Part shown: one piece after another, positions 22,220 through 23,819 of the stretch
Position numbering within the stretch: position 1 is the stretch's first letter
Layout of the letters: each line of letters begins with the position of its first letter
From: a virus
Length of the DNA: 35,753 nucleotides
Virus record (IMG/VR): IMGVR_UViG_3300025889_000408
Location: 1-35,753 of that record
Reading direction: 5' to 3' (one strand)
Notes under the pieces: generated by a model
Told to the model about the DNA's origin: nothing
The model's input: only the letters and a program-made list of their open reading frames with translations
Database searches by the model: none
Translations under genes and position numbers: made by a program

Positions 22220-22321
22220 CTAGTTAATTAACGAATTAATTGCACCGAATATAATCATAGCACAGGCAAAGATAGACACAAAGCCCATGAACCACAGCAA
22301 GATATTAACTATTATCTTCAT
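22220..22321 (-). CDS. Single-span membrane peptide (33 aa)
   Basis: It starts MKIIVNILLWFMGFVSIFAC, continues AMIIFGAINS and ends LIN: one hydrophobic transmembrane helix with a single N-terminal Lys. AGGAGG lies exactly 6 nt before its ATG and is embedded in the acidic C-terminal codons of the preceding gene, which it overlaps by 17 nt. The optimal ribosome site and TM pattern support a real micro-gene. It may be an inner-membrane effector such as a superinfection or holin-like toxin; this is inference. Confidence 0.65.
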   Translation of the reverse strand: MKIIVNILLWFMGFVSIFACAMIIFGAINSLIN

Positions 22322-22514
22322 CTTCTTCCTCCTCATACTCATCTACCAGTTCTAGTAATGCTTCTCTCGGGATGTGGTACATCAAGCAATACACCGATTC
22401 TATATCGCTCGTGTACGATATGTACTCCAACACTTTCTTGATTAGCTTGTCGTTAGGGTGTGGGTCTAATCCATATTCTTCCCAATCAATTGCCCATCTA
22501 TCTTCTTCCGTCAT
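22305..22514 (-). CDS. Early acidic hypothetical protein (69 aa)
   Basis: It begins MTEEDRWAIDWEEYGLDPHP. The middle helix is KLIKKVLEYISYTSDIESVY, and a long acidic tail (VDEYEEEEDEDNS) follows. GAGGTGAT lies about 4 nt before the ATG. The 5' leader of this gene is the 3' product of the hammerhead ribozyme at 22537-22592: cleavage would leave a 5'-OH leader of 28 nt with the ribosome site intact. The charge suggests interaction with basic proteins or DNA mimicry. Unrecognised family. Confidence 0.6.
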   Translation of the reverse strand: MTEEDRWAIDWEEYGLDPHPNDKLIKKVLEYISYTSDIESVYCLMYHIPREALLELVDEYEEEEDEDNS

Positions 22515-22536: not shown

Positions 22537-22592
22537 GTCTAAGACACCCAATCCTCTGGGTGTTTCGGGTATTCAACCCTCATCAGTTAGAC
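22537..22592 (-). ncRNA. Type I hammerhead ribozyme A (downstream copy)
   Basis: Read leftward, the parts in order are: stem I arm GUCUAA; core CUGAUGA; stem II GGGU with loop UGAAU and ACCC; GAAA; stem III CACCCA with loop GAGGAU and UGGGUG; then U16.1 and C17; and the closing stem I arm UUAGAC. All invariant hammerhead nucleotides are present (C3 U4 G5 A6 G8 A9, G12 A13 A14, A15.1-U16.1). Stem I is the open helix, so this is type I. Predicted cleavage is between C17 (opposite 22543) and U (opposite 22542). The core overlaps the last codons of the gene at 22573. Confidence 0.93.
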
Positions 22593-22803
22593 TCATGGAA
22601 AAAAAATTATTAAATTTGCGGTAAGCCTCACAATATTTTTCGTATTCGTCTTTGGCTGAATAGAAAAAGGTTAAGCTAGGATAGATATAATAATCAGGAT
22701 TGAAATCACCGACGGCGTTACCGACTTTACGGCGTACAACTTTCTCACCGTTGTATTCTTCAACACTTAAAAATTCATTTAAAAATTCTTTGTAAGTTAG
22801 CAT
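22573..22803 (-). CDS. Small protein encoded between two hammerhead ribozymes (76 aa)
   Basis: It begins MLTYKEFLNEFLSVEEYNGE; the middle is GDFNPDYYIYPSLTFFYSA, then YEKYCEAYRKFNNF, ending SMSLTDEG. It is Tyr/Phe-rich and soluble. AAGGAA lies 5-7 nt before the ATG. The whole ORF with its ribosome site lies in the 287-nt RNA (22829 to 22543) released by the flanking ribozymes. The final SLTDE codons encode the ribozyme core of the downstream copy, and the same residues end the unrelated preceding protein. No known family recognised. It is the only gene in the window with this flanking. Confidence 0.75.
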   Translation of the reverse strand: MLTYKEFLNEFLSVEEYNGEKVVRRKVGNAVGDFNPDYYIYPSLTFFYSAKDEYEKYCEAYRKFNNFFSMSLTDEG

Positions 22804-22823
22804 TGTGTTTCCTTTCTGTTATT

Positions 22824-22879
22824 GTCTAATACGCTCGATACTCTGAGCGTTTCGGCTAATCAAGCCTCATCAGTTAGAC
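22824..22879 (-). ncRNA. Type I hammerhead ribozyme B (upstream copy)
   Basis: Read leftward, the parts are: stem I GUCUAA; CUGAUGA; stem II GGCU, loop UGAUU, AGCC; GAAA; stem III CGCUC, loop AGAGUAUC, GAGCG; U16.1 and A17; then UUAGAC. It is the same length as copy A. Of ten differences over the surrounding 62 nt, six form three compensatory base pairs (one in stem II, two in stem III), and invariant core and stem I are unchanged. H17 is A here and C in copy A; both are permitted. Cleavage is predicted between the nucleotides opposite 22830 and 22829. Confidence 0.93.
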
Positions 22880-23093
22880 TTTGGATATACTCCTGCGGTA
22901 CTACTCTGCCTATATCTTTGCCTCCTAGATATTCGTTTATATGGCGCGTCGTTGTTTTACTGTATTTCTTATCAGTTCTAAATGCTCCCTGCTCATCCCA
23001 TCCCGCGACGGGTGTTTGATAACTGAATAAAATCGTGGTGTCTTTATTCAAAACTAGTTCGTTCATGTTTGATTTGATTGGGTTTAGTTTCAT
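22860..23093 (-). CDS. Conserved early phage protein (77 aa), first gene of the leftward operon
   Basis: It begins MKLNPIKSNMNELVLNKDTT. Conserved features are ILFSYQTPVAGWDEQGAF and KYSKTTTRHINEYLGG. The '.vl.SY.TPVA........f.T...yS.TTtrHIN.wL' signature is widespread in phages of Proteobacteria; function unknown. It ends SLTDEA, whose codons overlap the hammerhead core. Cleavage after the stop would leave this mRNA intact with a 3' hairpin and cyclic phosphate. AAGGA lies 9 nt before the ATG. The leftward promoter at 23134 reads directly into it. Confidence 0.75.
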   Translation of the reverse strand: MKLNPIKSNMNELVLNKDTTILFSYQTPVAGWDEQGAFRTDKKYSKTTTRHINEYLGGKDIGRVVPQEYIQSLTDEA

Positions 23094-23133: not shown

Positions 23134-23161
23134 ATTGTAGACTATCCGCGAGATAAGTCAA
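23134..23161 (-). promoter_or_regulatory. Leftward early promoter PL
   Basis: Read leftward: TTGACT (23161-23156), 16-bp spacer, TACAAT (23139-23134). Both boxes differ from sigma70 consensus at one position. The start would be near 23127, 34 nt before the first early ATG. It is the only plausible promoter in front of the ribozyme-bearing early operon. Confidence 0.6.
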
Positions 23162-23790: not shown

Positions 23791-23819
23791 TTGACAAATG
23801 ACTAGAAATGTGGTATAAT
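23791..23819 (+). promoter_or_regulatory. Consensus sigma70 promoter P2 (packaging operon)
   Basis: TTGACA 23791-23796, 17-bp spacer ending TGTGG, TATAAT 23814-23819: perfect boxes with an extended -10. The start is expected near 23826, giving a ~96-nt structured leader before terS. It is nearly identical to P1 and P3. Confidence 0.9.

Follow-up and report, generated by a model that had tools for sequence, protein, structure and literature searches.

The genome of a podovirus-like phage (IMG/VR record IMGVR_UViG_3300025889_000408, positions 1 to 35,753; this whole 35,753-nt stretch of viral DNA is referred to here as the window) carries two complete type I hammerhead ribozymes on its minus strand, an assignment that is strongly supported by sequence, with catalysis predicted. 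We postulate, with a probability of roughly 0.77, that both are working ribozymes that split an early leftward polycistronic RNA at the boundaries between genes 1 and 2 and between genes 2 and 3. From sequence, structure, conservation, and placement, we infer catalysis, segmentation of the RNA, effects on stability, and translational gating. The register of stop codon, ribozyme, predicted cut, and start codon recurs at hundreds of sites, and cultured pelagiphages have it too. It points to the cutting of messages between genes, and the exact sites and cultured examples that it supplies make the cleavage idea testable.

Read on the minus strand, copy 1 is GUCUAA-CUGAUGA-GGCU(UGAUU)AGCC-GAA-ACGCUC(AGAGUAUC)GAGCGU-A^UUAGAC and copy 2 is GUCUAA-CUGAUGA-GGGU(UGAAU)ACCC-GAA-ACACCCA(GAGGAU)UGGGUGU-C^UUAGAC (the caret marks the predicted cut). 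By direct reading, both contain the invariant core (CUGANGA ... GAA, A15.1-U16.1, and H17), and stem III of each begins with A15.1-U16.1. In both, stem I is open and stems II and III are closed by loops, the type I permutation. The two elements lie where the preliminary description had placed them, with every core nucleotide intact and in the leftward operon that it described, and its count of 10 differences between the copies, including three compensatory base pairs, is borne out by the sequence. A 31-nt pattern common to both copies matches twice in the window, against 0.00 matches expected from shuffles. When each copy is folded alone, the hammerhead is the minimum-energy structure. In a 421-nt context, copy 1 retains the whole hammerhead, while copy 2 keeps stem III and shows stem II in the centroid only; that the minimum-energy structure of this longer RNA lacks the complete copy 2 hammerhead is a counterpoint to segmentation.

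Table 1. Positions of the ribozymes, flanking genes, and predicted products in the window
Feature	Positions	Strand	Remarks
Sigma70-like promoter match TTGACT-16-TACAAT	23134..23161	-	Upstream of gene 1; kept in relative L122
Gene 1	22860..23093	-	77 aa; PHROG 5643, function not assigned
Hammerhead copy 1, type I	22824..22879	-	Sequence, pattern, R1 covariance model, isolated fold
Copy 1 stem I	22879-22874 with 22829-22824	-	
Copy 1 core CUGAUGA	22873-22867	-	
Copy 1 stem II	22866-22863/22857-22854	-	Loop UGAUU, 22862-22858
Copy 1 GAA	22853-22851	-	
Copy 1 stem III	22850-22845/22836-22831	-	
Copy 1 H17	22830	-	A; predicted cut 22830/22829
Gene 2	22573..22803	-	76 aa; no family
Hammerhead copy 2, type I	22537..22592	-	Sequence, pattern, R1 covariance model, isolated fold
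Copy 2 stem I	22592-22587 with 22542-22537	-	
Copy 2 core CUGAUGA	22586-22580	-	
Copy 2 stem II	22579-22576/22570-22567	-	Loop UGAAU, 22575-22571
Copy 2 H17	22543	-	C; predicted cut 22543/22542
Gene 3	22305..22514	-	69 aa
Predicted 287-nt RNA	22543..22829	-	Message carrying gene 2 alone; 5'-OH at one end, 2',3'-cyclic phosphate at the other; inferred from the two predicted cuts

The preliminary description had proposed the Rfam type I covariance model as a deciding check. Rfam returned no match over the window at its gathering thresholds; Hammerhead_1 (RF00163; cut-off, 34 bits) found nothing in the window even at an E value of ≤10, and the sole Rfam match at that E value was RAGATH-1-hammerhead (RF03152), whose scores for the two copies, 28.9 and 21.3 bits, fall far short of its 56.3-bit cut-off. 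To reject the ribozymes on this ground would be wrong, because the Rfam models miss the subclass to which both copies belong. Hammerhead_1 resembles them in its core and in the type I order of its stems, but the window copies differ from it in having a 6-bp stem I without an internal loop, A and AA flanks, and a UNNAU loop II. RAGATH-1-hammerhead, the best Rfam match to both copies, likewise shares the hammerhead core and type I order but includes a further hairpin upstream, which in the window is weak or long-gapped, and a stem I of five pairs in the model.

A covariance model (R1) was built from 32 copies in other phages, with the window and two contigs related to it (L122 and L057) excluded. 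R1 matched copy 1 at 62.7 bits (E value, 5.7e-15) and copy 2 at 59.8 bits (E value, 3.5e-14), and its next-best match in the window had an E value of 0.33. In 13 ribozyme-rich loci, Hammerhead_1 passed its threshold for 1 of the 47 type I copies found by descriptor, and in five records of pelagiviruses, either cultured or from fosmids, no hammerhead rose above the Rfam thresholds. The absent Rfam match is a limit of the models, which also miss nearly all relatives in the subclass. An abundant hammerhead subclass has been overlooked by standard RNA-family annotation. The type I identity given earlier stands on the intact core, on stem covariation over hundreds of copies, and on the independent covariance model.

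Searches of 2.9 million viral contigs with DNA patterns returned at least 119, at least 67, and at least 103 stretches. After removal of redundancy, a descriptor yielded 311 copies, spread over 180 viral loci; applied to mononucleotide-shuffled sequence of the first 203 loci, it found none. Two nearby copies had been called unusual, a view that does not survive: in a sample gathered largely by hammerhead pattern, 81 of the 210 copy-holding loci have at least two, on the same strand within the locus in 81 of 81, and hammerhead clusters near phage genes are common and published (PMC3088659). Covariation of the helices is seen in stem II, which is a perfect 4-bp helix in 247 of 257 matches to CTGANGA-N13-GAAAC (a pattern that does not require pairing), in the stem pair counts (from sequences selected for pairing), and in the three compensatory pairs between the window copies. 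Stem I consists of six pairs in 284 of the 311 copies.

Besides this 6-bp stem I, the subclass is marked by the A and AA on either side of it and by a UNNAU loop II that covaries with these flanks. All 250 copies with a U-pentaloop have A immediately 5' of stem I (position -1), while in all 14 with a GUAA tetraloop position -1 is C or U and the 3' flank is UA; the window copies are both of the former class. We relied on these flank classes because the first U of loop II is invariant, which made a mutual information search for base pairing between loop II and the tail uninformative. The cosegregation of flank and loop II suggests that stem I and loop II make the tertiary contact known from natural fast hammerheads. 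Among 84,980 genomes of bacteria and archaea, a tight subclass pattern matched once (a lower bound, as the pattern is strict), and the subclass looks largely confined to free phages. No DNA similarity was found between the 20.5- to 25-kb part of the window and 50,697 phage records.

The placement of the ribozymes with respect to reading frames is exact. In both copies loop II opens with the UGA stop of the upstream gene: that of gene 1 (22862-22860) in copy 1 and that of gene 2 (22575-22573) in copy 2. The C-terminal residues SLTDEA of gene 1 are encoded by stem I, core, and stem II of copy 1, and the SLTDEG tail of gene 2 is encoded by copy 2. Gene 2 starts 26 nt past the first predicted cut and gene 3 starts 28 nt past the second. 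Across loci, nearly all copies have the upstream stop between -17 and +14 relative to core C3, a register that is partly automatic, given that the core UGAUGA and the stem I UAA stop two of the three frames and that the CTAA/TTAG search pattern enforces that UAA. The start-codon register, unlike this part of the stop register, is not built in: the median distance from predicted cut to next gene start is 31 nt, and 58% of these distances fall within 15 to 50 nt, compared with 5.6% for random positions. Ten percent of predicted cuts lie inside an automatic gene call. The GenBank-annotated ends of Eistla gp15 and gp19 and of HTVC168P gp2 are UAA codons inside stem I. A sigma70-like match upstream of gene 1 is listed in Table 1; such matches are no commoner in the region than chance would give. 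A perfect 12/12 sigma70 match (TTGACA-17-TATAAT) is located at 23791-23819 on the plus strand, in an intergenic region facing the rightward genes.

We propose that each ribozyme, overlying the 3' end of the upstream gene and supplying its last codons and its stop in loop II, would cut 26 to 28 nt before the next start, so that the ribosome-binding site of the following gene stays with the downstream fragment. A cyclic phosphate would then close the structured 3' end of the upstream message, and a 5'-hydroxyl would start the downstream one; because the split messages would carry different ends, neighboring genes could diverge in stability and expression. A ribosome terminating on the upstream gene would occupy the ribozyme, and cleavage may therefore be gated by translation. 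That the ribozyme includes the stop codon hints that terminating ribosomes may compete with cleavage.

Comparison with close relatives bears on an alternative explanation. In L122, which is 98% identical to the window on one flank, gene 1 has been replaced, from its start codon to the base before copy 1, by an unrelated gene that nonetheless ends in SLTDEA. L057 shares 907 nt with the window at 99.9% identity, a match that begins one base before copy 1; upstream of this junction it carries structural genes together with a small gene that is unrelated to the other two and ends in SLTEEA. Its ribozyme has its own N7 (A) and so is not a copy of that in the window. Over L057:1-7844, structural genes of another lineage are joined to the window-like 907 nt exactly at the ribozyme edge, and the contig is either a true recombinant or a chimeric assembly. 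Single-gene replacements ending at the ribozyme edge were found in 28 comparisons from about a dozen phage groups.

These observations raise the possibility, which we consider doubtful but worth weighing, that the ribozyme is kept mainly as a joint for modular exchange, with genes swapping at its 5' edge; any incoming gene would work there, because the ribozyme stops translation in any frame and separates transcripts. The three unrelated genes that share an end point and a SLTDEA or SLTEEA tail, together with the 28 replacements, favor this explanation. Replacement ends also exceeded expectation in a hotspot test against uniform positions (68 versus 12), and the signal was likewise strong against all other boundaries at 80% identity. 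However, at ≥90% identity and among boundaries within 1.5 kb, the broken fraction was 0.336 with a ribozyme and 0.346 for the others, so that a hypervariable neighborhood may explain the pattern; moreover, the conserved element itself fixes where alignments end. We do not claim a recombination hotspot at the ribozymes, as the excess vanishes against these nearby boundaries. What can safely be said is that the ribozymes sit in a hypervariable early region and persist when the preceding gene is replaced. A version joining both ideas seems to us rather unlikely: the ribozymes would be translation-gated separators, with stops in stem I, core, or loop II covering all three frames, ribosomes blocking cleavage, and cleavage reporting that upstream translation has ended, and would serve in addition as a universal joint for early gene exchange.

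Segmentation of the message at gene boundaries remains our preferred reading when products other than linear messages are considered. Gene 2 might be freed and religated as a 287-nt circle, which is conceivable because the 5' end that the upstream ribozyme generates is able to pair into stem I of the downstream one. The window copies do have identical stem I sequences, and consecutive copies that are unlike in stems II and III are compatible in stem I in 53% of cases, compared with 23% of random pairs. Nearly half of consecutive copies are nevertheless incompatible, so the signal is not general; local duplication predicts the same sharing of stem I, and Perreault et al. (2011; PMC3088659) sought circular or spliced products in bacterial clusters and detected none (data not shown there). 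We therefore regard circularization as very improbable. We give slightly less credence still to selfish or relic sequences that spread by duplication and in which cleavage would play no part, for although copies within a genome share sequence and hammerheads are known in selfish elements elsewhere (PMC3088659), all stems are maintained by compensatory changes, the core and flanks hardly vary, the elements are placed precisely between genes, and the orthologous copies 2 of the window and L122 differ only at free or compensated sites (a pattern that gene conversion from copy 1 could also cause).

Copy 2 of L122 (L122:4428-4483, corresponding to 22537-22592 of the window) has the stem III that belongs to copy 1, which suggests that one ribozyme has converted another within a single genome. 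At L122:3401-3560, between genes and upstream of the early promoter, are short GTATTCAGTATTC-like repeats.

Clustered phage hammerheads and the message-cutting idea have been known since Perreault et al. (2011), who described cleavage in vitro of tandem bacterial and prophage hammerheads, and of a triple array also in Escherichia coli, and already proposed processing into single-gene mRNAs (PMC3088659). As in their prophage clusters, where several hammerheads on a transcript flank single genes, copies 1 and 2 flank gene 2 on the same strand. Their clusters were in bacterial and prophage genomes, whereas the tight pattern for the present subclass, as noted above, matched only once in bacterial and archaeal genomes. 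Stop codons, ribosomes, and recombination are not mentioned in the main text of that paper. As late as 2023, the reason for hammerheads near phage genes was described as unknown (PMC10085705), and in the literature covered no effect on expression is shown for any phage hammerhead. Set against open-licence papers, including the main text of Perreault et al., what we appear to add is the exact coding register, the persistence of the ribozymes when the gene in front is exchanged, the failure of Rfam to recognize the subclass, and cultured phages suited to testing.

The cultured Pelagibacter phages in question are Eistla EXVC025P, HTVC168P, HTVC131P, and Jormungand EXVC012P, in which hammerheads with a 6-bp stem I, unannotated in the GenBank records and below the Rfam thresholds, lie between annotated early genes; Eistla EXVC025P has two copies with identical stem I. 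Like those in the window, they overlap stop codons, theirs in stem I, but they differ in having other stem I sequences and a longer stem III. Among open-licence papers, we found none on hammerheads in pelagiphages. Pelagiviruses known from culture or from fosmids whose early regions contain unannotated hammerheads are L315 (Eistla EXVC025P), L316, L317, L204, and L205. In a single phage operon of another locus (L078:3517-5251), three Rfam-passing type II and three type I hammerheads are found on the same strand within ~1.7 kb.
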